From positions 1 through 41,878 of the IMG/VR virus record IMGVR_UViG_3300049489_000282: a stretch of DNA of 41,878 nt; one strand, 5' to 3'. Each line of letters opens with the position of its first letter. Within the stretch, counting starts at the first letter, position 1. Shown in pieces: positions 13,831 through 41,878 of this stretch. A model generated the notes under the pieces. The model had not been told where the DNA came from. It saw nothing but the letters and a program-made list of their open reading frames with translations, and did no database searches. This DNA comes from a virus. Made by a program: the position numbers and the translations under genes.

Positions 13831-14054
13831 TCACAAGTTGCTTCGTTTGTAGCTAAAATTAATTTCTTTAACTTTTTGCCCATTGCAATTTCACGCTGCG
13901 ACAAAAGAGTTATTTGTTTCTCTAATTCATCTATTTTATCAGTTAGTGGACTTATATTGTGATTATGGAGGGCATCAACTCTTTCTAGTAAAAGGTTTAG
14001 CTTCCAAAAATATTGAAGCATCTTGTTTTCGGCTCTAGCTAATTCAGTTTCCAT
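13827..14054 (-). CDS. Coiled-coil protein, 75 aa
   Basis: Almost entirely helical, with a leucine heptad run around residues 15-60 (LNLLLERVDALHNH, ITLLSQREIAMG) and a basic tail. It is the last gene of the leftward operon and its ATG overlaps the stop of the single-strand binding protein gene by one base. It may bind the upstream recombination proteins, which is inference from co-transcription only. Confidence 0.65.
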   Translation of the reverse strand: METELARAENKMLQYFWKLNLLLERVDALHNHNISPLTDKIDELEKQITLLSQREIAMGKKLKKLILATNEATCD

Positions 14055-14524
14055 TAGAACGGCAGACTTTCATCGGCTTGAACTACTGCAGCTAGAATTT
14101 CTTTACTCAAATCAGCCACATCATTTATATAAACATTATGCGCGTCGCCTGTTGTGCCATCTTTTTTAGGATATGTGCGGTGTTTAGCATATACCTCAAC
14201 AGATTTACCAACAGTTGAATCTAAAAATGTTCCAAGTGTATCCATTTTCATGTCAGCTTGTGCGCCGAGTTTCATTAGTTCTTTTTTTAAAATCGCTGCA
14301 CCAACTTCGTTAAATGAAAAGTTAGCAAAGATAAGTCTGCCATAATGTTCATTTTGACCTCTAATTTTATACCAGATGCTGACTTGATTAGGCGTTTTAG
14401 TTTGATCGAGTGTGGCTCGTTCAATTGTCGCCATATAAGTACCAGTCGGCACTGGTGCTAGTTCTTTAGTAGCAGTTTGTGGGGTATCAATTTTAGCTGA
14501 ATCCCATAGATTTTGTAAGCTCAT
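14054..14524 (-). CDS. DUF669-like single-strand DNA-binding protein
   Basis: 156 residues, AGGAG upstream. The sequence follows the DUF669 pattern: PVPTGTYMATIERATLDQTK near residues 25-44, a strand with YGRLIFANFSF, a helix with LKKELMKLG, and a basic beta hairpin (KHRTYPKKDGTTGDAHNVYI). It ends in an acidic tail ADESLPF, the kind of C-terminus by which SSBs recruit partners. It lies directly after the Sak4-like ATPase, the usual pairing in phages. Role: coating single strands in replication and recombination. Confidence 0.8.
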   Translation of the reverse strand: MSLQNLWDSAKIDTPQTATKELAPVPTGTYMATIERATLDQTKTPNQVSIWYKIRGQNEHYGRLIFANFSFNEVGAAILKKELMKLGAQADMKMDTLGTFLDSTVGKSVEVYAKHRTYPKKDGTTGDAHNVYINDVADLSKEILAAVVQADESLPF

Positions 14525-14540
14525 TTATTACTCCTTTTGT

Positions 14541-15215
14541 TTATTGTTTTTGGTTCATATTCCAATTTTTAATTAAGCGACCAGTTTCTTCGGTGATTTT
14601 AAAAGGTATTGGATCTGAAAATAGTCCAGTGCGATCTTTAGACGCTACTGCCATGTGATCCATGTTAATTGATAAACTTAATGAAACTTCATACTCAAAA
14701 CCTTCACGCTGAATTTCTTTTAGGCCAAATTTTTCAACCTGTTTTTTGCCATTCTTTTCAACCATAGCAGTTTCTTGTTTTGATCTAAGGGTGCAAATAA
14801 TATGAGCCTTGCTTTGTAATATTGAATTAACAAAAGCCTGGTGCATAGGTGTTACTGTATTCCAGTCTTTCCATTGGCCTCCCAATTTAGCATGTATTTT
14901 TAGACACTCTTCCCACTCATGGGTTCCGCTATCTAAAATAATAAATTTAAACCCCTGCGCAACACAATAATCAATGGCCTTAACATATCTTTGTGGTTCA
15001 AATGGTGCTTCAAATGGCAATACTGAATAACAGCCTAGGTCTTCATATAAATTTGCAGAACCATTTTCAGTATCAATAACCACAACCTCATCGAATGACC
15101 CCATGAAACCTTTGGCTAAAAGAAGAGAACTATAAGTTTTGCCACTACCACTTGCGCCTGACACAGCCATTTTCAAATACGCTTCACTACGTTTTGCTTT
15201 TTTAATTAAAGACAT
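14541..15215 (-). CDS. RecA-fold ATPase, Sak4/AAA_24-type recombinase
   Basis: 224 residues. Walker A at residues 20-27 (GASGSGKT), a strand ending in VVVIDTE, and Walker B at FIILDSG with Asp95. Size and motif spacing match phage Sak4 single-strand annealing or strand-exchange ATPases. Its partner is the DUF669-like protein encoded 16 bases downstream. The start has GAGGTG upstream, and this site lies in the loop between AATTCA and TGAATT arms (15,217-15,235), a possible small hairpin that presents the binding site. Confidence 0.85.
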   Translation of the reverse strand: MSLIKKAKRSEAYLKMAVSGASGSGKTYSSLLLAKGFMGSFDEVVVIDTENGSANLYEDLGCYSVLPFEAPFEPQRYVKAIDYCVAQGFKFIILDSGTHEWEECLKIHAKLGGQWKDWNTVTPMHQAFVNSILQSKAHIICTLRSKQETAMVEKNGKKQVEKFGLKEIQREGFEYEVSLSLSINMDHMAVASKDRTGLFSDPIPFKITEETGRLIKNWNMNQKQ

Positions 15216-15269: not shown

Positions 15270-15500
15270 CTAGATTTGTGTACTAATATTTTTAGCTTTT
15301 AAAATATCAATCAATGCGTCACATTTAGCATTATGGTCAGGCAGATCGAATTGGACTTTATACCATTCGTTATAAATATCATCGCCAAATGATTTAGCGT
15401 ACAGGATCAGCCGCAGCTTCGGATCGGTTATCATCGGTGAAGACCACTCCGTTGTAACATTTCTGCCATTCACGTCTGTGAAGTTTTGTCTTATCTGCAT
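15270..15500 (-). CDS. Hypothetical protein, 76 aa
   Basis: A GAGGAAC sequence lies just before the ATG, so the start is well supported. The protein is mixed alpha/beta with a DxxDxY-type acidic central part (YAKSFGDDIYNEWYKVQF) and no cysteine pairs beyond one. It sits between the glycosyltransferase and the Sak4-like gene. No family recognised. Confidence 0.7.
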   Translation of the reverse strand: MQIRQNFTDVNGRNVTTEWSSPMITDPKLRLILYAKSFGDDIYNEWYKVQFDLPDHNAKCDALIDILKAKNISTQI

Positions 15501-15642
15501 TTTGTTCCTCTGTTTGTATTGTAAAAGGCATGTTTTTAAAATGTAAATCTAGCATCATATAGGCATGGGCTAGACTAGAAAATTTTAAAATTATTGATCT
15601 TGCCCCATATTCTTTTGGCAAACTTACTATAGCTTTCAGCAT
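15394..15642 (-). CDS. Hypothetical protein overlapping two neighbours, 82 aa
   Basis: The ATG has a strong GGGGGAG nine bases upstream and lies within the last 68 bases of the glycosyltransferase gene. Its 3' part runs for 107 bases in a different frame over the next gene. The first half (KAIVSLPKEYGARSIILKFS, then a helix) reads like a real protein, whereas the last third uses codons dictated by the overlapping gene. It may be a true short gene that has lost its original stop. Confidence is modest. Confidence 0.4.
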   Translation of the reverse strand: MLKAIVSLPKEYGARSIILKFSSLAHAYMMLDLHFKNMPFTIQTEEQNADKTKLHRREWQKCYNGVVFTDDNRSEAAADPVR

Positions 15643-17158
15643 TCCTACACTCCCCCATGTACAAATCTAGTAGCACAGGGAGCTGTATATACGCATTAAA
15701 TATGGTAATTGCCACAAGAATTGTAAAATTTATATAGTTATAGCCTTGAGTAATTCGGTATATGACCATAGATAGGGTAATTATGGGTGTTAATATGGTT
15801 ATAAAGGCATAGAATTTCATGAAATCCTGATACCTTTTCGAGTTATTTGTTCCGCCGGTCGGAATCCAAGCCTCTGCCGTCTGCATGATTATGTCTTTAA
15901 GTGCATAAATATGTGCATAAAATGATACTTGCCGGACGCGCAAAACGTCTAAATCATACGGCAATTTCTGCCAGTATTTCATGTAAACTGTTGATAGAAA
16001 AAGACTGGGGATAGAGAAAAGTAAATTGAACCAATAAATATATTCAGGATGAAATATCAAAAGATAAATTGATGGTATAGTGGCGAATATCACAGATAGG
16101 CCTGTTGTTAAATAATAAAACATGCCAGACAAGTAACAAATCTTTTGCATTACGCTCATGCCTTTTGCCCAAAATTCTTTTGACAACATCAAGTCAAGTG
16201 AACCCATTGACCAGCGATAGTATTGCGTAAAAAAAGATTTCCAATTTTCAGGGCATGTGCCCATTGCTAAGTTTATTGGGATATATTTAACTTTACCGCC
16301 AACTGCTGCGAGCCTGAAGCCAGTTCTAACGTCTTCAGAAAACCCGATGGCCGATGTGCCGCCAAACTGTTCGAGTGCTGATCTTCTATAGCAAGCATTA
16401 CTGCCGACGCATATCGCACCATCGAACGTATCGCGTGATACTTGAATCAGTCTATAAAATAATTCCTGCACACTTGCTGACCCTTTTTGCACCCTAGTTA
16501 ATTCATTTGTAACTTCAAAAAACTGAGGGCTTTGCACAATGCCAACAGAATTATCAACATACATATATGGCATCACGTTTATAATAAAATCAGTTCGCGG
16601 GCAAAAATCGGCGTCAAATATAATAAAAAAAGGTGCAGTTGTTTTAGTAAACGAATGACGGAGGTTCCCCGCCTTTTTTAATTCATTTGTTCCGCGATCT
16701 ATATAATTAAATTGAAAAATTTCGGCTAACTTTTCTACATCTTTTGAGTGACCATCATCTAGCACATATACTTTTATTTTACCCTCATGCGCCTCAACAA
16801 GTTTTGAAACATAGACCCATGTATTTCTAATCAGCTCTATCGGCTCATTACATACTGGTAGCAAAATATCTATTTCTTCATTAGCTGATGGCACATGATA
16901 GCGCGTGATAAGCCCAACATGCCTATCGAAATTAAAATCATCGCCAAATATTCCGACAGCATAAGTAAGCAGCAAGTAGATGATAGTTAATATAGAAAAT
17001 ATTAAATACGGCACAAATGCAGGATTTGATTTAATAAATAAAATCATACCGACTGTTAGCAGTATTGTCGATAGCGCAGACAATGAATATAAATCACGTC
17101 TGCCGCTATCTAAGTATAAAAACTTTTGTATATTATTTGGCGATTTGGGTAAATACAT
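15575..17158 (-). CDS. Processive family-2 glycosyltransferase (cellulose/hyaluronan synthase-like)
   Basis: 527 residues with every hallmark of a membrane polysaccharide synthase. Two N-terminal membrane helices (about 27-45 and 50-70) come first, then the GT2 core: YVLDDG (134-136), KAGNLRH (162-168), FDADF (182-184), QSPQFF (209-214), FSED (274-276) and the acceptor motif QYYRW (312-316). About four more helices follow (335-372, 375-392, 450-467, 476-498), with WIPTGGTNN at 431-439 where the gating loop lies in BcsA. No PilZ domain follows, so no cyclic-di-GMP control is expected. It should polymerise a UDP-sugar and push the chain through the inner membrane. The sugar cannot be told from sequence. 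Confidence 0.88.
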   Translation of the reverse strand: MYLPKSPNNIQKFLYLDSGRRDLYSLSALSTILLTVGMILFIKSNPAFVPYLIFSILTIIYLLLTYAVGIFGDDFNFDRHVGLITRYHVPSANEEIDILLPVCNEPIELIRNTWVYVSKLVEAHEGKIKVYVLDDGHSKDVEKLAEIFQFNYIDRGTNELKKAGNLRHSFTKTTAPFFIIFDADFCPRTDFIINVMPYMYVDNSVGIVQSPQFFEVTNELTRVQKGSASVQELFYRLIQVSRDTFDGAICVGSNACYRRSALEQFGGTSAIGFSEDVRTGFRLAAVGGKVKYIPINLAMGTCPENWKSFFTQYYRWSMGSLDLMLSKEFWAKGMSVMQKICYLSGMFYYLTTGLSVIFATIPSIYLLIFHPEYIYWFNLLFSIPSLFLSTVYMKYWQKLPYDLDVLRVRQVSFYAHIYALKDIIMQTAEAWIPTGGTNNSKRYQDFMKFYAFITILTPIITLSMVIYRITQGYNYINFTILVAITIFNAYIQLPVLLDLYMGECRNAESYSKFAKRIWGKINNFKIF

Positions 17159-17518
17159 TTACCACAAAGTTTTCTCTAATTTAACATATCCATATGATCT
17201 AACTTCAACGCCAAAATCATACGTGTCTTTTAGAGCAACTCCTGGTGCAATAGTCCATGAACCGTTATAAAAATCTACTTCAGCTTTAGCCACCTGCCAC
17301 ACAACATCTTTTTTATCTTGGAAATCCTCAACTCCAATTCCAAGGTAGCCATTGAAAGCAATATTTTTCATCAGCTTTTGATAAATAGAAAAACCCGCCG
17401 CCGGTCTTACAGCACCAGTGTCTTGATAAACATTTCCCTGTAAAGATAATTTGCCACTCGCTAAAGCATCATGGCTCATTGCTAACATTGCTATTGATAT
17501 TAAAATAATTTTCTTCAT
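17159..17518 (-). CDS. Exported beta-rich protein, possible outer-membrane partner of the synthase
   Basis: 119 residues. A clear Sec signal peptide (MKKIILISIAMLAMSHDALA) is likely cut after residue 20. The mature 99 residues are alternating-strand sequence (KLSLQGNVYQDTG, IAFNGYLGIGVEDF, WTIAPGVALKD) and the chain ends in YVKLEKTLW, an aromatic C-terminus like the BAM recognition signal of outer-membrane proteins. It is short for a closed eight-strand barrel. The stop touches the synthase start with no gap, so the two are translated together and probably act together. Confidence 0.7.
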   Translation of the reverse strand: MKKIILISIAMLAMSHDALASGKLSLQGNVYQDTGAVRPAAGFSIYQKLMKNIAFNGYLGIGVEDFQDKKDVVWQVAKAEVDFYNGSWTIAPGVALKDTYDFGVEVRSYGYVKLEKTLW

Positions 17519-17521
17519 ACA

Positions 17522-17539
17522 TTCCCCCTATTGGTAGGG
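17522..17539 (-). promoter_or_regulatory. Hairpin overlapping the ribosome binding site of the exported protein gene
   Basis: CCCTA (17,526-17,530), loop TTGG, TAGGG (17,535-17,539). Read on the minus strand, the GGGGGA ribosome binding site just upstream of the ATG begins inside this stem. Folding could partly hide the site and limit translation of the exported protein and, by coupling, the synthase. The stem is only five pairs, so the effect may be weak. Confidence 0.4.
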
Positions 17540-17567
17540 TGATTTTATCTAATATATAGTCAAATTC

Positions 17568-17601
17568 AATGTATTAAATACCTTATCAAAATGCATTAAA
17601 T
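17568..17601. repeat. 12-bp direct repeat pair, 22 bp apart
   Basis: AATGTATTAAAT and AATGCATTAAAT differ at one base and start exactly 22 bp apart, about two helical turns. They lie between the divergent leftward and rightward operons. The spacing suggests two protein contacts on one DNA face, for control of the leftward operon. TATAGTCA (17,555) and its complement TGACTATA (17,632) flank the area as a wide inverted repeat. Confidence 0.4.
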
Positions 17602-17679
17602 TCACTATATTTGCCGCCATATCTACCACAATGACTATAAAGGCATTTTATCAAATTGAGGCGTAAATAAAAATAATTG

Positions 17680-17708
17680 TTTACTTTGTGCCACAAATGT
17701 GGTACACT
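17680..17708 (+). promoter_or_regulatory. Candidate early rightward promoter with an embedded operator
   Basis: TTTACT and TACACT are 17 bp apart, a reasonable sigma-70 pair, and the first early gene follows with an AGGAGG site. Between them lies an imperfect 18-bp palindrome at 17,688-17,705 with core CCACA-AA-TGTGG. A protein bound there would block RNA polymerase. It differs from the TTTACAT palindromes near 19,300, so a different regulator, phage or host, is likely. Confidence 0.5.
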
Positions 17709-17755
17709 GGTACTGTATTTAGTTAGTTAGATTGAAGCGATCCAGGAGGATTAAA

Positions 17756-25976: not shown

Positions 25977-26489
25977 ATGGAAATAAAATGTAGTTATACT
26001 GAGTTAAGAGATGTAGTTAACATGGTTGAAAACCCGAAGAACTATAATAAGCATAGCTCTCGCCAAATAGATATGCTGGCAAAGATTATGAATTTTCAAG
26101 GCTGGCGCCATCCAATAGTGGTATCTAAAAGATCAGGTTTTATAGTCGCTGGTCATGGACGATTACAAGCTGCTAAGAAATTAGGATGGGATAAGTGCCC
26201 GATAGATTTACAAGACTTTCCTGATGAGGCAACTGAGCTGGCTTTTTTAGTTTCTGACAACAAAATCCAAGAGCTAGCAGAGACCGACAACGACATGCTA
26301 CTTGAGATAGCCACATCTTTAGGTGATAGTTTTGATACTGAGCTTTTGGGTCTTGATACAGACATAATGATTCAGCCACTTGACGAAGTTGTAGAGCATG
26401 AAGGTTTAGAAAATGTTAAAATAGTTATTCTAGAGTGTCCACATTGTAACCAGACTTTTGAACAGGCTCAGGCTAAAATTGTCGGATAA
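25977..26489 (+). CDS. ParB/Srx-like domain protein
   Basis: 170 residues with GGGAGG upstream. The ParB-like core is clear: NPKNYNKHSSRQIDMLAKIM, then HPIVVSKRSGFIVAGHGRLQ with the GHxRLxA motif, and a helix ending in WDKCPIDL. A CPHC at the C-terminus suggests an added metal site. In phages this domain is often placed next to DNA methylases and may act as a nuclease or DNA-modification partner. It overlaps the methylase gene. Confidence 0.85.
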   Translation: MEIKCSYTELRDVVNMVENPKNYNKHSSRQIDMLAKIMNFQGWRHPIVVSKRSGFIVAGHGRLQAAKKLGWDKCPIDLQDFPDEATELAFLVSDNKIQELAETDNDMLLEIATSLGDSFDTELLGLDTDIMIQPLDEVVEHEGLENVKIVILECPHCNQTFEQAQAKIVG

Positions 26490-27366
26490 ATATGGATTGC
26501 CTTACCAAGGATCTAAGACAAAAATAATAGATCAGATAGCTAAATTATTCCCTAGTGCCGATCATTTTTACGATTTATTTGGCGGAGGATTTTCAGCAAG
26601 TCATTATATGCTTAGACATAGGTCAAGATCTTATAAGCAGTTTCATTACAATGAACTACGTCCTGGTTTATGCGAGCTGATTAAAGATGCGATAGCTGGC
26701 AAATATAATTATAAAATATTTAAGCCTGAGTGGATTACGCGTGAGCGTTTTATGGCTGATAAAGAAAAAGATGTTTATATTAAAATCATTTGGTCATTTG
26801 GCAATGATGGAGCTTCTTATTTATTTGGAAAAGAGATAGAGCAGCCAAAGCGCAGTATGCACATGGCAGTTGTGTTTGATGAATATGACGATTGGTTTAA
26901 AACTACCTTTAGGATAAATAAATTCCCAGATGGCTTGGGAATTAAGGCAAGGCGGCTGTATCTTAGAAAACTAATTAGGCATATTGGTAGAATCGACATC
27001 CAACAGCTCCAACAGCTCGAACGGCTCGAACAGCTCCAACAGCTCGAACAGCTCCAACAGCTCCAACGGCTCGAACGGCTCGACCTAACTAATTTAGATT
27101 ATCGCAAAGTCATTATAAAGCCTAACTCAGTTATCTATTGCGATATTCCGTACAAAGGCACTGGTGATTACGGTAATGGATTTAACCATAAAGATTTTTT
27201 TGATTGGGCGGATAATCAAGTAAATCCGGTGTTTATATCTGAGTATAAAATAGATGATCCAAGGTTTTATTTATTAAAAGAGATATCGCATCGGACTACT
27301 TTTTCTAATGGCGGTAATAGTTTAGTTAAAGAAAGAGTATATTGCAATAAGGCTGCTAAAACCTAG
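26479..27366 (+). CDS. Dam-like adenine-N6 DNA methyltransferase with internal repeat
   Basis: About 295 residues from a TTG that begins MSDKYGLPYQGSK; a TTG seven codons upstream is the alternative. Motif X is YQGSK (9-13), motif I DLFGGGFS (32-39), motif IV DIPY (222-225) in place of DPPY, then KGTGDY. This is the D12-class layout. Between motifs, residues 175-201 are nine tandem tripeptides (QQL, ERL, EQL, QRL). It would methylate adenine to guard phage DNA from host nucleases or to time packaging. No matching restriction gene is nearby. Confidence 0.85.
   Translation: MSDKYGLPYQGSKTKIIDQIAKLFPSADHFYDLFGGGFSASHYMLRHRSRSYKQFHYNELRPGLCELIKDAIAGKYNYKIFKPEWITRERFMADKEKDVYIKIIWSFGNDGASYLFGKEIEQPKRSMHMAVVFDEYDDWFKTTFRINKFPDGLGIKARRLYLRKLIRHIGRIDIQQLQQLERLEQLQQLEQLQQLQRLERLDLTNLDYRKVIIKPNSVIYCDIPYKGTGDYGNGFNHKDFFDWADNQVNPVFISEYKIDDPRFYLLKEISHRTTFSNGGNSLVKERVYCNKAAKT
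27001..27081 (+). repeat. 9-unit 9-bp coding minisatellite in the methyltransferase gene
   Basis: Nine tandem units of SAACRGCTC (S is C or G, R is A or G), with no other variation. Only two positions differ, changing Gln to Glu at the first codon and Gln to Arg at the second, so every difference is amino-acid changing. The third codon is always CTC for Leu. The unit length keeps the frame, so unit number can change without breaking the enzyme. Confidence 0.95.
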
Positions 27367-36294: not shown

Positions 36295-36672
36295 ATGAAT
36301 TTTGACGAGCTACAAACTAGACTTGAGGAAAAGATAAGCGAAGGTCGAACTAACCCAATTGGTTATGGCGGCGGTGATTTGACTGGGATGTCAATAATTG
36401 AAGCTGATGTTATGCGCTCACCTTGCAGGGCTTTACGCTGGCTATCTGATAACTCACTTTTTAATTTTGAGACTTTTGTTACTCTCTCATCCGTCGAAGG
36501 ATGGCAGGGAATAAACGTCTATAATAAAGACGGCACACTTCACCGGACGATTAAGGTTCAAATGGGCGGCGGCGAAAACGCAGATCCAAAAAATCAGATT
36601 TACATTAACAACCGCGCCATTATACTAGAGGCAATTGCGATGCTATGGGAAGAATTAAATCTAGGAGGCTAG
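36295..36672 (+). CDS. Conserved late protein, 125 aa
   Basis: Preceded by AGGGGAGAGT, a strong site. The sequence starts helical (MNFDELQTRLEEKISEG) and has a Gly turn (PIGYGGGDLTG) and a helical end. Its last 56 bases recur at the window start, so it closes the phage A circle. No family recognised; it lies among fibre and connector genes. Confidence 0.75.
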   Translation: MNFDELQTRLEEKISEGRTNPIGYGGGDLTGMSIIEADVMRSPCRALRWLSDNSLFNFETFVTLSSVEGWQGINVYNKDGTLHRTIKVQMGGGENADPKNQIYINNRAIILEAIAMLWEELNLGG

Positions 36673-36819
36673 TGTGAGCAAATGTCCTTTATGTTATGGT
36701 GAGCTTAAGACCTTTAGTTTATCGTTTGGTTCAGTGATGAATCTATGCGAAAGCTGCGACATAGAGATGACAGAGAAAGAATTGGTAGAATTAAAAGCTG
36801 CGACTTATGATTCGATAAT
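36617..36819 (+). repeat. Terminal direct repeat, right copy, running into the phage junction
   Basis: Partner of 1-203. The first 117 bases are identical; four mismatches lie at 36,734-36,745 and one at 36,811. From 36,820 the similarity to the left copy drops, as nearly every codon changes its third base and the sequence becomes GC-richer. The upstream side is phage A, the downstream side phage B. Confidence 0.9.
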
Positions 36820-36970
36820 CGCACACCTTCTCGAGAGCGGAGATGATGTCAGGCGAAGAGAGAGGGTGCGGACGAAAATCGCACTGAAGAACATCAAACA
36901 GTGGGCTGCGGCCAATCTCACAGGAGATGAAAAAAGCCCTCTCATGCCCGCAGACGAAATTCATTGCTAG
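36674..36970 (+). CDS. Zinc-ribbon protein, mosaic A/B allele
   Basis: 98 residues. Residues 1-48 match the phage A allele with one change (Ile21 to Val) and keep C4, C7, C25 and C28. Residues 50-82 are about three-quarters identical in protein (HLLESG, RRRE, RTKIALKNIK, WA) yet use quite different, GC-richer codons, and the last 15 residues are unrelated. The same homologous gene is therefore stitched from two lineages in frame. It is followed by phage B packaging genes. Confidence 0.85.
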   Translation: MSKCPLCYGELKTFSLSFGSVMNLCESCDIEMTEKELVELKAATYDSIIAHLLESGDDVRRRERVRTKIALKNIKQWAAANLTGDEKSPLMPADEIHC

Positions 36971-36999
36971 CATACTCTCCTTCGTGTAACACTCATCCT

Positions 37000-37593
37000 A
37001 TGACTGACGACGAAGAAGAAGCAGCTCCCGAAAGCACAGAAGAGACAGACGCCGACGCTACGACCTACCAGACGCTTGCACAGGGTGTCCTCTCACCACG
37101 TCACCGTCGCATGGCTCAGCTCGCAGCCGAGGGACGTTCAAACACAGAAATAGGCCGTGAACTCGGATACGTTGACTCAAGAGTCTCCGTTCTCCTCCGC
37201 AATAAGCACATCATGACCGAGATCGCTCGCCTACAGGAGCGCATCTTCGAAGAGACGATCGCACAGCGAATGAAATCCTTCGCCGAGCCCGCACTTCAGA
37301 ATATTCACATGATACTCACGGACAAGACGAACCGAGTGAGGGTCAGCGAAAAGGCCGAAATGAGTAAATGGGTTGTCGAGAAACTCGACGGCAAGGCCGT
37401 TCAGAAGACAGACATCGGAGAGAATCTCCTCGGACTATTCCTCGATAAGCTCGACTCACGTCAGACCCAGTCCGCACCCCAACGAGAGGTCACACCCAGT
37501 GGAGCCCCGGACATCGAAACAAAGGCGCTACCGGAGCCCCCGAAGGACGAACTCGAGAGCTGGGTCGATGACTTTTGCAGCGAGTCAGAGTAA
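37000..37593 (+). CDS. Probable terminase small subunit, phage B
   Basis: 197 residues from the ATG; upstream in-frame TTG is unlikely and no clear ribosome binding site is visible. After an acidic leader (residues 1-22) comes a helix-turn-helix (RRMAQLAAEGRSNTEIGREL), as in sigma-like terminase small subunits, then a long helical part. The C-terminus is acidic and proline-containing. It lies 84 bases before the large terminase. Codon use is GC-rich, like all following genes. Confidence 0.75.
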   Translation: MTDDEEEAAPESTEETDADATTYQTLAQGVLSPRHRRMAQLAAEGRSNTEIGRELGYVDSRVSVLLRNKHIMTEIARLQERIFEETIAQRMKSFAEPALQNIHMILTDKTNRVRVSEKAEMSKWVVEKLDGKAVQKTDIGENLLGLFLDKLDSRQTQSAPQREVTPSGAPDIETKALPEPPKDELESWVDDFCSESE

Positions 37594-37605
37594 ATCACTC
37601 TCGCC

Positions 37606-37658
37606 TTGACTGCGCTTCCATGTAATTATTACATTATCAGCTTAACATGATAGCGCAG
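37606..37658. promoter_or_regulatory. Nested inverted repeats and candidate promoter between phage B terminase genes
   Basis: An outer repeat CTGCGCT (37,610-37,616) and AGCGCAG (37,652-37,658) encloses a perfect palindrome ATGTAAT-T-ATTACAT (37,620-37,634). TTGACT (37,606) and TACATT (37,630) are 18 bp apart, a possible sigma-70 pair overlapping the palindrome. The element may be an operator, an RNA structure or a packaging signal. It is AT-rich in an otherwise GC-richer segment. Confidence 0.45.
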
Positions 37659-37677
37659 ACGCCGAAGGTGTAACACC

Positions 37678-39267
37678 GTGACGAGAGATGAAGTATTAAA
37701 GCTCGATGCCCTCTCTCGCTATGAACTTTTTCGTAATGATCCATGGCAATTTCTCACACACTGTGTATTCACGCACGATGAAGTCGATCGCGACAATCCG
37801 ATCAAACAATTCCCTGTGCATCTTGATTACTTAAAATTTCTCGTAAAAATGTGGCAGGCCAGGAAGAAGCTCGCGATACCGAAATCACGTCGTTTGACCG
37901 TCTCGTGGACATTCATTGCTCTCGGTCTGTGGGACTGCATCTTCCACAAGGGATGCTCTTGGGCATTCGTATCGAAAAAGGAAGAAGACTCTAAAGAGCT
38001 CGTGCAACGGGCGAAATTCATTTACGATCACATCCCTGCGGAGATGATCGCACCCGAGCTCTTGCCAAAACTAAAACGCGGAGAAATGCAATCCAGTCCG
38101 CCGCTAATGGAGTTCACAGATATTCACTCTAAGATTATGGGCTTCCCTGCGGGTGGAAATCAATTACGTCAACGTGGTTTCTCTGGAATATTCGAAGATG
38201 AAATCGCATTCTGGGAAGAAGCAGAGGCCGCATACGCGTCAGCAGAACCGACAGTCAAGGGCGGCGGTCGCATGGTCATGGTCAGTACGCGCTTTCCTGG
38301 TTTCTTCAAGAAAATCGTCTACGATCGTCTCGATGAAAAGGATCTTAATTACTCCGAAAATCCGCCAACGACTCCGAAGTCTCCCATGGAAGGGGTCGAC
38401 GTGTGGACGAATCCCGTGAATGGATTTACAGTTATTGATCTCAGTCACCGAGCTAATCCAGCGAAACGCGATCCGATCTTCGAGGCTGAGCTACGTAAGA
38501 CACTCCCCCTGCATTTATTCAACATGGAATATGGCAAAAGCTGGGCGAGCTTCGAGGGTCGCTCCGTGTACGAGGATTTCAATGCGGGACTTCATTTCAT
38601 TCGTCGCGAACCGGATCTCGCAGTCGGGCTTCCCGTGCTGATCGGCTGGGATTCCTCCGGTCTCACTCCTGCCGTCGTGATCGGACAGCTTCAGGAGGAG
38701 AAGCTCATCATCTTTCGCGAGCTGATCGGCTCGGGCATGGGTGCAACGAGATTCGTCCCATGGGTCGCAGAGACCCTGCGCTTCGCCTATCCGCAGATCA
38801 CGGACATCGCAAAACAGACGATTTCCTTTTTCGATCCGGCGGGATTCAAGAAGAACGAGATCACCGAGCAAACGTACCTTCAGGCCATGATGGCCGGAGG
38901 TTTTAAGCAGATTCGCCCCGGTCCTATGATGTGGGAGAAGAGACGCGAAGCTGTCACCGAGAGGCTCGTCGGACTCGCTAATAAGGAGCCGAAAATCGTA
39001 ATCTATGAACAGGGCTGTCCGATTCTCTCGGCTGGATTCAAAGGCGGATACCGTTACTCGGACAATATCGCGAACGCGGAGCCGGACAAAGTCCGTCCTG
39101 TAAAGGACGTCCATTCACATCCGCAAGATGCACTTCAGTATCTATGCGGGGGTCTCCGTGGATTCCGCACAGAGGGCGGATACGATAAAATTCCAACACC
39201 AAGTTACTCATTCCAAAAACACGAACACACAAGCGGAAGACCGCAATTAAGGAAACGCTATGGCTAA
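37678..39267 (+). CDS. terL: Terminase large subunit, phage B
   Basis: 529 residues from a GTG. The ATP-binding loop is the variant IPKSRRLTVSW (67-77), seen in podovirus-type terminases that lack the classic GKS. Walker B is GIFEDEIAFW with E173-D174-E175. The nuclease acids are in LIGWDSSG, FFDPAG and HPQDALQYL. It shows no close likeness to the phage A enzyme in motifs or length. It overlaps the portal gene by eight bases, so the two are coupled. Confidence 0.9.
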   Translation: MTRDEVLKLDALSRYELFRNDPWQFLTHCVFTHDEVDRDNPIKQFPVHLDYLKFLVKMWQARKKLAIPKSRRLTVSWTFIALGLWDCIFHKGCSWAFVSKKEEDSKELVQRAKFIYDHIPAEMIAPELLPKLKRGEMQSSPPLMEFTDIHSKIMGFPAGGNQLRQRGFSGIFEDEIAFWEEAEAAYASAEPTVKGGGRMVMVSTRFPGFFKKIVYDRLDEKDLNYSENPPTTPKSPMEGVDVWTNPVNGFTVIDLSHRANPAKRDPIFEAELRKTLPLHLFNMEYGKSWASFEGRSVYEDFNAGLHFIRREPDLAVGLPVLIGWDSSGLTPAVVIGQLQEEKLIIFRELIGSGMGATRFVPWVAETLRFAYPQITDIAKQTISFFDPAGFKKNEITEQTYLQAMMAGGFKQIRPGPMMWEKRREAVTERLVGLANKEPKIVIYEQGCPILSAGFKGGYRYSDNIANAEPDKVRPVKDVHSHPQDALQYLCGGLRGFRTEGGYDKIPTPSYSFQKHEHTSGRPQLRKRYG

Positions 39268-41155
39268 AGAAAAAGAAGAAATGACCGAGCAGCAAATTAT
39301 AACTTATATCATGGACTGTCGCGGAGAGGCGGACGAAGCTAAACGGGAGCGCATGGACCGCAACAAAGACAACTACGATATGTTTCACTTGCGTCACGAT
39401 TTCAGTCATAAGAGAGACGGTCAATCGCAAGAGATCCTATCGAAGCAGAGTATGGCTGTCGAGATGACTAAAGCGACCTTTCAGCAGGCGCTCGCGGACT
39501 TCGGCGACTGGTGGTCAGCGGAGATATGCTACCCGGACGCTGAGATGACCATGAAAGTACGTCCGCATGAGATCACGAAACTCACGAACTACATGCTCGA
39601 ATGCTCGCGCTACTACAGTCACGTCGGTAATTCCGTCGAATCAGCACTTCTCTCTTCACTCGCGATCACGAAAGTCACCGGAAAACTGCGTCCGAAACCT
39701 AAATTCATCGCACGAAAGAAGGGACGAGGCGCGGGACTCAAACGCTGGGTCGATAAGATCGACAATAAAACATGGGAAGTCGATTTTCAGAGTGTCCGTG
39801 CAGAGAATTACTACCCTGATCCTACCTCAGAGCGCAATAAGCTATACGAAATCGAAGATGCATGGGTCGATATGCATGAACTCATCGCAATGGCCGAACA
39901 AGATTCGGATTTCGTCCTTCCCGATGGACTCGCCGGGCAGGGCGTCGACGAAACCGAGGAGGTCTTCAAGAAAGCACGAGAGACCGGACAAAGCACTCCA
40001 GCTTCGGGGCCGCGACTCAAAGTAAAGCTCACTGAATTCTGGGGTACGATCGTTCATCCGACCTCAGGTGAGATCATTCATGAGAATGTCCAGGCAATAA
40101 TCGCGAACGACAAAGATCTCATTCTGAAACCGCGACCTAATCCACTATGGCATCAAGGCTCCCCATACGTAGCAAGTCCTCTTCTCGAGGTCGCAAATTC
40201 CGTATGGCATAAAGCACTAATGGATGCACCGACGCGCCACAATCGCGCACTCATCGAGATGTATAATCTCATGGTCGATGCGGCCATGATGCAGGTGCAT
40301 GGGATCAGTCAGCTCCGGAAGGATTGGCTAGATAATCCGGCCCAGGTCTCAGACGGCATCGAACCCGGCATGGCAATCGGAGTGAATTCAATGTGTCCAC
40401 CCGGGGGAAAAGTCCTCGAGCCCCTCGTCAATGTCGTAATCCCCGCCGAGGTCTTCTCCGTCTTTAACATTCAAGGACAGGAGTTCTATTCGTCTGCGCT
40501 GACCTCGGATCTACGCTCAGGGATCACTCCGTCACGCGAACAAAAAGCAACGGCGATCGTCGAACAGAGTCAGACGATCACGTCTGTCTCTACGGGCATG
40601 AGCAAGAACTACGAGGCACGACAGATCACTCGCGAACTCGAAGTCGCATGGCAAACGACGGCACAGAATTGGGACATGATCGACCGTGAGGTATTTATCT
40701 CGCTCTTCGGCACACAACGAGGAGCCGAACTTGCTGATCTTCCTCCGCAAGAGGTCTTCGCAAGTACCGTTAACGGAGTGCGCTTCCGTGTCTTCGGAAT
40801 CACACAGACCCTCGGTAAAGCGCAGGACTTCCGAAAGCTCACGACACTTCTTCAGACGGTCGCATCTAGTCCGCAGCTTCTCGAGGAGTATCTCAAGAAG
40901 TACGATCTCGGTAAGACTCTCGGCGAGGTCATGACCGCGCTAGATATAGATAAGCATAAGCTAGAGATTCCCGAGGCCGTTCAACGAACAATGCAAGAGC
41001 CGCAGGGGGAGCCGACACCGCAGCCCGATCAAATGAGTCAGGTTCCACAAGCGGGCGCAATGAGCGACATGATGGGAGCTAGTACGCCGGGCGGAATCCC
41101 CCAAGTTCAATTTCCCGGCAGTCCAGCGAACATTGGCGGAAATAACCAACAATAA
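39260..41155 (+). CDS. Portal protein, phage B (podovirus head-to-tail connector type)
   Basis: 631 residues, AAGGAAACGCT upstream. Landmarks are VRAENYYPDPTSERNKLYE (portal wing), SPYVASPLLEVANSVWHKAL and REQKATAIVEQSQTITSVST, the pattern of large P22/N4-like portals. The C-terminal 60 residues are Pro/Gln/Gly-rich and disordered. It is unrelated to the 506-residue phage A portal. Confidence 0.85.
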   Translation: MAKEKEEMTEQQIITYIMDCRGEADEAKRERMDRNKDNYDMFHLRHDFSHKRDGQSQEILSKQSMAVEMTKATFQQALADFGDWWSAEICYPDAEMTMKVRPHEITKLTNYMLECSRYYSHVGNSVESALLSSLAITKVTGKLRPKPKFIARKKGRGAGLKRWVDKIDNKTWEVDFQSVRAENYYPDPTSERNKLYEIEDAWVDMHELIAMAEQDSDFVLPDGLAGQGVDETEEVFKKARETGQSTPASGPRLKVKLTEFWGTIVHPTSGEIIHENVQAIIANDKDLILKPRPNPLWHQGSPYVASPLLEVANSVWHKALMDAPTRHNRALIEMYNLMVDAAMMQVHGISQLRKDWLDNPAQVSDGIEPGMAIGVNSMCPPGGKVLEPLVNVVIPAEVFSVFNIQGQEFYSSALTSDLRSGITPSREQKATAIVEQSQTITSVSTGMSKNYEARQITRELEVAWQTTAQNWDMIDREVFISLFGTQRGAELADLPPQEVFASTVNGVRFRVFGITQTLGKAQDFRKLTTLLQTVASSPQLLEEYLKKYDLGKTLGEVMTALDIDKHKLEIPEAVQRTMQEPQGEPTPQPDQMSQVPQAGAMSDMMGASTPGGIPQVQFPGSPANIGGNNQQ

Positions 41156-41190
41156 ACTAACGGTCAAGCAAGACCAACAAGGAGAACAGT

Positions 41191-41346
41191 ATGGCAAAAG
41201 CAGGAAAGAAAATGGGCGGATCGCTCATGGAGGAGATGTGCAAGGGTGAGGGCAAAAAAGGCGACTCCGACATGAAAATGGAAAAGAAAGAGCACGGACT
41301 CGCAAGTGAACTGAAAATGATGAGTGATGCACGGAGGAAGAAATGA
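41191..41346 (+). CDS. Small basic Lys/Met-rich protein, phage B
   Basis: 51 residues with AAGGAG upstream. Highly charged, Lys and Met-rich (MAKAGKKMGGSLMEEMCK), ending in DARRKK. It is ATGA-coupled to the following gene. Such tiny proteins follow the portal gene in related phages. Function unknown. Confidence 0.6.
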   Translation: MAKAGKKMGGSLMEEMCKGEGKKGDSDMKMEKKEHGLASELKMMSDARRKK

Positions 41347-41504
41347 AGAAAACTAAAGGCGCAAAGAAGATAGCAAAAGTAATGCATGAATTTAAAGCCG
41401 GATCGCTGCATTCGGGATCGAAGAAAGGTCCTGCCGTCACGAGCCGCAAACAAGCCGTCGCTATAGCAATGAGTGAAGCCGGACTAGCACGGAAGAAAAA
41501 ATGA
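41343..41504 (+). CDS. DUF6496-like small basic protein, phage B
   Basis: 53 residues with the recognisable pattern KIAKVMHEFKAGSLHSGSKK, then GPAVTSRKQAVAIAMSEAG, as in the DUF6496 family of small basic proteins common in phages and some bacteria. A very basic C-terminus (LARKKK). It is ATGA-coupled on both sides. The role is unknown; nucleic-acid binding is a guess. Confidence 0.75.
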   Translation: MKKTKGAKKIAKVMHEFKAGSLHSGSKKGPAVTSRKQAVAIAMSEAGLARKKK

Positions 41505-41767
41505 TCACGGAACACGACCGAATCGAATCAATCGCAGAGGCACGAGTGTTCGCACTCGCTGCTCCCGTGATCCTTCCAATCATAGAGAAGCGCAAACGGG
41601 ACGCTATGGGTCGCCTCATGCAGGCGCACCGTATGGGCAAGACGGACACGGCGACAGTCGTCGCAGAACTCTGCGTCCTCTCGGACATCGAAATAGAAAT
41701 CAACCAAAAGGAACAATCATACCGCACTATGGAGGAGCAACATGCCAGAAGTAACACAAGGAAATAA
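41501..41767 (+). CDS. Hypothetical protein, phage B
   Basis: 88 residues, helical, with a hydrophobic segment ARVFALAAPVILPIIEKRKR and a coiled end (IEIEINQKEQSYRTMEEQ). The size and position, after the portal and before a scaffold-like gene, suggest a head accessory protein. No family recognised. Confidence 0.6.
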   Translation: MITEHDRIESIAEARVFALAAPVILPIIEKRKRDAMGRLMQAHRMGKTDTATVVAELCVLSDIEIEINQKEQSYRTMEEQHARSNTRK

Positions 41768-41878
41768 TCCGAACGCATCTATGCACGATGAGGTTCGTCG
41801 CGCGCGAGCAGGTGCAGCGAAAGAAGACAGCGATGAGCTTCCGCGCAGTGCGGTCGCGAGCGAAGAGGCCGAAGAAAT
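41742..41878 (+). CDS. Scaffold-like protein, 5' end only, phage B (cut by window end)
   Basis: Forty-five residues are visible, highly charged and disordered (NASMHDEVRRARAGAAKE, then DSDELPRS). ATGGAGGAGCAAC precedes the start. An acidic charged N-terminus after the portal fits the head scaffold, which would be followed by the capsid gene outside the window. Confidence 0.5.
   Translation, partial: MPEVTQGNNPNASMHDEVRRARAGAAKEDSDELPRSAVASEEAEE

Follow-up and report, generated by a model that had tools for sequence, protein, structure and literature searches.

Synthase-dependent secretion of polysaccharides is already known, and so are virus-encoded GT2 synthases, which occur in the chloroviruses and, by annotation, in the Synechococcus phage S-CBWM1. 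The described system that is closest by sequence and fold to the one reported here is the cellulose synthase BcsA(-BcsB/BcsC) of E. coli and R. sphaeroides, which has in common with it the GT-A fold, the DDG/DxD/TED/QxxRW motifs and a channel of C-terminal helices. The known monomeric exopolysaccharide pores (BcsC, PgaA, NfrA, AlgE) have 16-18 strands, mostly with TPR repeats. In E. coli, NfrA/NfrB combines a BcsA-type synthase with an outer-membrane protein for the NGR glycan, the receptor of phage N4 (PMC8669472). The chlorovirus PBCV-1 encodes a UDP-glucose dehydrogenase besides its hyaluronan synthase, and the product of the synthase appears early, on the host surface; benefits have been proposed for chlorovirus coats, and one of them, that other viruses attach less, has been observed (PMC5408694).

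Here, we have analysed a pair of genes in the window, i.e. the whole stretch of DNA under analysis, which is the linear IMG/VR record IMGVR_UViG_3300049489_000282 (41,878 bases): one gene encodes a GT2, and the other a small exported protein, to which we refer as “the partner”. In contrast to bacterial cellulose synthase, the phage unit is without PilZ, BcsB and the BcsC-type TPR repeats and 16-strand pore, and has a 119-aa protein, modelled with six strands. The hyaluronan/chitin synthases of PBCV-1 are likewise virus-encoded processive GT2s, but their host is a eukaryotic alga without an outer membrane, there is no beta partner, and the GT2 is distant (about 12% identity, in a structural match). 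S-CBWM1 is a tailed phage with a putative cellulose synthase beside an export-type gene (gp157-gp158; L002 4367-7719); its synthase, however, is 724 aa long, with a long C-terminal extension (a candidate PilZ-like region), its neighbour is annotated as a multidrug efflux pump membrane protein, and no homologue of the partner has been found in it by profile. S-CBWM1 is a second, different phage arrangement of a synthase with an export-type gene. NfrA/NfrB differs in being host-encoded and c-di-GMP-regulated, with TPRs and a 16-strand barrel in NfrA, while its glycan serves the phage as a receptor and is not phage-made. The 12-strand oligosaccharide porins NanC/KdgM are matched by the partner over half of NanC, without sequence similarity (10%) and with half the strands. 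Lastly, actinobacterial and saccharibacterial GT2s (L023, L026, L056 and others; about 500 aa) are full-length homologues of similar length (31-40% identity), but most of their carriers do not have a Gram-negative outer membrane, and a partner gene is found in none of them.

The gene pair and its surroundings

An earlier note on this DNA had described the two genes as translated in step. Both open reading frames lie on the minus strand, precisely at the positions that the note gives, and the TAA stop codon of the partner abuts the ATG start codon of the GT2 without a gap (TGG TAA ATG). The features of the locus are as follows:

17519..17731, minus strand: non-coding region with a ribosome-binding site, upstream of the partner; likely promoter region of the leftward operon (sequence)
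17159..17518, minus strand: partner gene, 119-aa exported beta protein (open reading frame; AlphaFold; homologues in a further 17 phage lineages, ahead of the GT2)
15575..17158, minus strand: processive-type GT2 polysaccharide synthase, 527 aa (motifs, Pfam, AlphaFold, Foldseek)
15270..15500, minus strand: context, 76-aa open reading frame between the GT2 and the recombination genes (no family match)
14541..15215, minus strand: context, Sak4-like/AAA_24 phage recombinase, in a phage early-type neighbourhood (PF13479 9e-15; PHROG 1366/124)
14054..14524, minus strand: context, DUF669/phage single-strand DNA-binding protein (PF05037; phrog_378)

The ribosome-binding site, AGGGGG, is located 5 nt ahead of the partner ATG, at about 17524-17529. 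The promoter scan of 17519..17731 has given no signal above chance; the divergent gene layout is what suggests a promoter in this region. Downstream of the GT2, the minus-strand order is the 76-aa open reading frame, which is a neighbour of the cassette by position and lies on the same strand, the Sak4-like recombinase, whose relatives occur in many catalogued phages, the DUF669 single-strand DNA-binding protein and a 75-aa open reading frame; the other flank of the pair holds a VapE-type primase/helicase. The neighbourhood of the pair is one of phage replication and recombination. Elsewhere in the window (25977-27366), the gene of a ParB-like partition/nuclease-domain protein overlaps a DNA methyltransferase gene.

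The synthase and the partner protein

The GT2 contains all the motifs that had been read from its sequence, i.e. DDG (134-136), DAD (182-184), QSPQFF, SED (274-276) and QxxRW (312-316, occurring as QYYRW). Across an alignment of 25 relatives, no variation is seen at the catalytic residues of DDG, DAD, SED and QxxRW, nor at W431 and G435, which belong to a W-x-P-T-G stretch read by us as gating-loop-like. The protein matches PF13632, PF00535 and PF03552 above their gathering cut-offs, and its AlphaFold model (pLDDT 90.2) consists of two N-terminal membrane helices, a GT-A domain and a C-terminal helical bundle (helices 20-44, 50-71 and 336-501); the claimed flanking membrane helices are seen in this model, which also has the membrane channel, aligning to BcsA and HAS. 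A model without such a channel was the second outcome that the earlier note had named as refuting its reading, and this point is answered by the AlphaFold model. The nearest solved sequence is BcsA (phmmer 2.6e-37), and the Foldseek search with the model has returned BcsA at 2e-22 and the chlorovirus hyaluronan synthase at 4.7e-12. The absence of PilZ has been confirmed at the level of Pfam, which gives no match, and the protein ends soon after the last membrane helices of the model; a PilZ-less GT2 fits an enzyme that would run once made, other controls being possible.

Among the genes scanned around the GT2, the BcsB and BcsC families are absent, the 119-aa partner being the only such candidate there, and against the CelA equivalog TIGR03030 the GT2 scores 176 bits, the cut-off being 699; with this score, and without PilZ, BcsB or BcsC, we have rejected its assignment as BcsA/CelA. 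Since the GT2 motifs and fold are present, while PilZ is absent and the CelA score is under the cut-off, the protein is best described as a putative processive-type synthase of the BcsA/HAS kind that is not BcsA by membership, and for which polymerisation is predicted.

The partner, claimed to be an exported and beta-rich protein, has a signal peptide (signal helix 2-16) that would be cleaved at an A-x-A-like site (ALA/SGK), leaving a mature protein of ~98 aa that ends in TLW. Its AlphaFold model, built from 14 homologues (pLDDT 88.5), is a meander of six strands of 11-16 residues each (20-30, 37-50, 53-66, 70-85, 88-100 and 105-116). The strands are amphipathic: hydrophobic residues alternate and the opposite face is polar or small, with the near-invariant residues K/R113, D82, K78, N56 and W58/W74 being located on the non-hydrophobic face. 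The partner thus has the broad features of an outer-membrane beta-barrel, namely a Sec signal peptide and alternating amphipathic strands, although the hydrophobic/polar alternation alone would equally suit a soluble beta sheet. The C-terminal aromatic residue had been described as being of the outer-membrane type, which holds in part: the protein does end in W, and the terminal aromatic is conserved in the homologues (W; once F, once W-D), but in the partner it is located on the opposite face from L118/K116/L114, off-phase with the hydrophobic side of the last strand, and is not the textbook C-terminal Phe signature.

No sequence relatives of the partner have been found in Pfam, NCBIfam, PHROGs, the PDB or the catalogued phages. 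In the Foldseek search of the viral library, the best named matches of its model are cyanophage outer-membrane-protein-like barrels and other phage outer-membrane proteins (best E of this search 0.0016, not significant); in the search of the PDB, the best E is 0.025, also not significant, and the top ranks are unrelated actin-capping proteins, while the matches of probability 1.00 are, among the matches listed, structures of NanC (TM 0.68 over the query, rmsd 3.6, E-value 0.29, 10% identity). In the model, the partner looks like half of the 12-strand NanC barrel, and a dimer may form a pore. Two identities have been rejected for the partner: that of a KdgM/NanC porin, given its six strands versus 12 per chain, the lack of a profile match and a fold likeness that extends to one half only; and that of a BcsC-type exporter, given its six strands versus a barrel of 16-18, without TPR and without a Pfam, NCBIfam or PHROG family. 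Because six strands are too few for any known monomeric exopolysaccharide pore, an export role of the partner would need self-assembly.

Occurrence and mobility of the pair

Scans with the whole GT2 sequence have returned nothing new, or only S-CBWM1, and the partner-only scan with the single window sequence has given no matches; it was a conserved 79-aa fragment of the GT2 that, as a query, first opened the family, by returning two further phage contigs, both of which encode a homologous protein with a signal peptide immediately ahead of the GT2. In wider scans, 18 phage lineages (the window included), whose GT2s reach about 82% identity at most among the closest pairs that were compared, carry the partner just upstream of the GT2, with at most one gene between them. 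The spacing ranges from a short overlap to about 12 nt, save in L012/13, where the gene of a 61-aa Fis-type HTH protein is located between the two, and in L014/15, where a methyltransferase-like gene occupies this position. L114/115 is an additional lineage, with a weak partner match 5.5 kb away in the same genome.

The partner of L014, which had been left out of the first profile, scored 130 bits, and the partner-only search with a 4-row alignment subset returned just loci that also hold a GT2; large-terminase genes are present in 15 of the 21 partner-bearing contigs (window excluded). Homologous genes in the same order in 17 further lineages are far beyond chance. The search in other phages that the earlier note had proposed has thus recovered the same pair, while the claim that such a pair is unusual in a tailed bacteriophage stands for described phages but not for metagenomic ones, where the pair recurs widely; in addition, S-CBWM1 has an annotated cellulose synthase gene. 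Small Fis/NtrC-type HTH proteins, found between or beside the cassette genes at L012 7819-8004 (confirmed by Pfam) and at L005 6594-6857 (a candidate), are possibly a regulator of the cassette in some phages.

The partner is absent from S-CBWM1, L020/21 (GT2 33% identical) and L111, though GT2 relatives are present there, as well as from every one of 79 genome loci where GT2 relatives occur, most of them in Actinobacteria and Saccharibacteria. In the search for a host, the partner profile has had no match in 688 sampled genomes (399 of Pseudomonadota and 289 of Verrucomicrobiota); in the positive control, it matched 6/6 held-out cassette phages. In the GT2 tree, whose rooting on S-CBWM1 is unreliable owing to a very long root branch, the partner-bearing phage sequences group apart from the actinobacterial and saccharibacterial ones, and the truncated sequences L025 and L031 fall among the phage sequences. 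These two are phage-type GT2s, 51-53% identical to that of the window, from two Verrucomicrobiota MAGs (L025 5989-6972 and L031 186-1232), each followed by the same 1072-aa open reading frame; the MAGs, of ~6 Mb, are labelled Akkermansia muciniphila, a species label that looks wrong for that size. The two copies may be decayed transferred genes, a weak clue to the host.

Both genes look to be under purifying selection: dN/dS is 0.054 for each of them in L114/L115, the only pair that is usable in both genes, as most GT2 pairs are dS-saturated, and that of the partner is 0.05-0.18 wherever dS is computable.

When the open reading frames within 8 kb of the cassette are compared across the 18 loci, only 24 of the 153 locus pairs have any flanking protein in common, and much of this overlap consists of the nucleotide-sugar dehydrogenase and epimerase (L006, L013, L019, L109) or of common replication/packaging genes; since the flanks are mostly unrelated, the pair moves as a cassette. 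A nucleotide-sugar dehydrogenase gene accompanies the cassette in four lineages (L006, L012/13, L019 and L109), three of which have an epimerase gene as well. The genes of L006 run partner, GT2, epimerase, dehydrogenase; in L012, the epimerase gene overlaps the end of the GT2 and is faced by a TviB-like dehydrogenase (437 bits, under the cut-off of 592); in L109, the end of the dehydrogenase gene is located directly upstream of the cassette. Of 50,697 catalogued phage records, 36 contain a homologue of the L019 dehydrogenase and 30 one of the L012 dehydrogenase, a rarity that makes background an unlikely source of their co-occurrence with the cassette, rough as this comparison is. A dehydrogenase beside the phage cassette parallels the UDP-glucose dehydrogenase and hyaluronan synthase of PBCV-1, and the dehydrogenase genes of some lineages are at most suggestive of the use of UDP-GlcNAc and UDP-GlcA in the style of the chlorovirus HAS; a uronic acid is probably part of the chain, at least in the lineages with the dehydrogenase and epimerase. 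Neither gene is present in the record of the window, which would therefore depend on the UDP-sugars of the host.

Two further observations concern these flanks. The dehydrogenase of L006 (10319-12100) is interrupted at its catalytic cysteine by an intein that carries a LAGLIDADG homing endonuclease (GGK/C...HN/CFPKD). A block of genes beside the cassette is common to L006 (12048-16800) and L120 (244-5041), and consists of a radical SAM/SPASM protein, a cytidylyltransferase-GT2 fusion, a small open reading frame, a DAHP-synthase-like protein and a methyltransferase-type protein; it possibly makes an unusual sugar or other modification.

Proposed function and alternative readings

Our main reading, to which we assign a probability of roughly 0.6, is that the pair is a mobile cassette with which phages bring about the synthase-dependent secretion of a polysaccharide by hosts that are presumably Gram-negative. 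The GT2, located in the inner membrane, would polymerise a UDP-activated sugar on the cytoplasmic face and extrude the chain by way of the membrane channel that it forms itself, with no PilZ/c-di-GMP brake; this half of the mechanism is drawn from the GT2 fold and motifs. The partner would be exported by Sec and, with its signal peptide removed, would reside in the outer membrane, or at it, as a curved sheet of six strands, where it would probably assemble, e.g. as two copies that form a 12-strand NanC/KdgM-like barrel, and would give the chain a way out or keep it on the surface; this half is suggested by the strict co-inheritance of the two genes and by the porin-like half-barrel. If expressed in the course of infection, the pair would give the infected cell a coat of glycan. 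The benefits proposed for chlorovirus coats are the obvious candidates here; at a guess, competing phages would be kept from attaching, an effect that has been reported for hyaluronan on algae infected by chloroviruses. A bolder version, which we put forward tentatively and at somewhat less than even odds, is that of a previously undescribed, horizontally mobile two-gene phage secretion system with the smallest known outer-membrane exporter, a six-strand self-assembling pore matched to an unregulated synthase.

The same pairing could be read differently, with the GT2 as a polymer synthase, the partner as a periplasmic or outer-membrane accessory (a chaperone, an anchor or a BcsB-like activator) and a host pore as the exporter. 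Six strands and ~98 residues are indeed too small for a known monomeric polysaccharide pore, strict co-occurrence suits any functional partner equally, and the strand alternation is compatible with a soluble sheet; however, the nearest structures by probability are porins and phage outer-membrane-like proteins, and no other export gene recurs as the cassette moves, which would make the reliance on one host pore fragile, so that we regard this reading as rather unlikely. Phage-encoded outer-membrane proteins can replace receptors, e.g. the Lc porin of coliphage PA-2, and the matches of the partner in the viral library are small phage outer-membrane-protein-like proteins; on these grounds, the partner itself might exclude superinfection, by masking phage receptors or competing with them, the glycan decorating or supporting it. 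Yet the partner has never been found without the GT2 at the loci searched, and the sugar-nucleotide genes that several lineages add point to the glycan as the product, which leaves superinfection exclusion by the partner quite improbable. Phage glycosyltransferases that modify receptors are common, and the GT2 might likewise be non-processive, adding individual sugars to LPS or a lipid carrier and thereby altering the phage receptor, as in the gtr clusters of temperate phages; a receptor-altering role has been proposed by Benler et al. for the glycosyltransferases of Gratiaviridae (PMC8008677). Against this, the invariant QxxRW, the conserved W431/G435 and the full membrane-channel model that aligns to BcsA and HAS are features of processive synthases, and we consider a non-processive GT2 distinctly unlikely.

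There is also the possibility of an artefact, i.e. that the pair is bacterial DNA mis-joined to a phage contig, which the earlier note had named as a finding that would refute its reading. The right end of the record does suggest a chimera: another terminase large subunit is encoded at 37678-39267 and a head-tail adaptor/portal-like gene is located at 39260-41155, while GC is about 0.52 at this end (36300-41878, with a step near 37 kb) versus about 0.38-0.39 elsewhere; given the two large-terminase genes and the GC rise, two phages are probably combined in this record, with the join somewhere from about 33.3 to 37 kb. The suspected chimeric end is about 20 kb from the pair. The pair itself, with a GC of 0.34-0.37 that fits its surroundings, has phage genes on both sides, among them the recombination genes downstream on the same strand; it recurs in the 17 other phage lineages, mostly with terminases, and its nearest relative, L006, has a second protein in common with the window, at 71% identity. 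This answers the point of the earlier note in favour of a genuine phage pair, and mis-joining is extremely improbable.

In the open-access literature that we have searched, no description of the partner-GT2 cassette has been found; three things are new relative to this literature and to the libraries searched, namely the small beta partner, the constancy with which it is paired with the GT2, and the occurrence of the pair across unrelated tailed phages. The partner represents a protein family without a match in Pfam, NCBIfam and PHROGs, and stands a fair chance of proving to be a new type of exporter. The many uncultured phages that have the pair probably cause the cells they infect to release a sugar polymer, in the manner of the algal chloroviruses; polymer secretion forced by a virus is documented for the latter, and a compact, widespread phage version would make the question of its benefit testable in bacteria. 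The pair would offer a minimal two-part model for the passage of a polysaccharide across two membranes without the large Bcs, Pga or Alg machinery, and a widespread phage cassette of this kind would add a phage source of environmental extracellular glycan.
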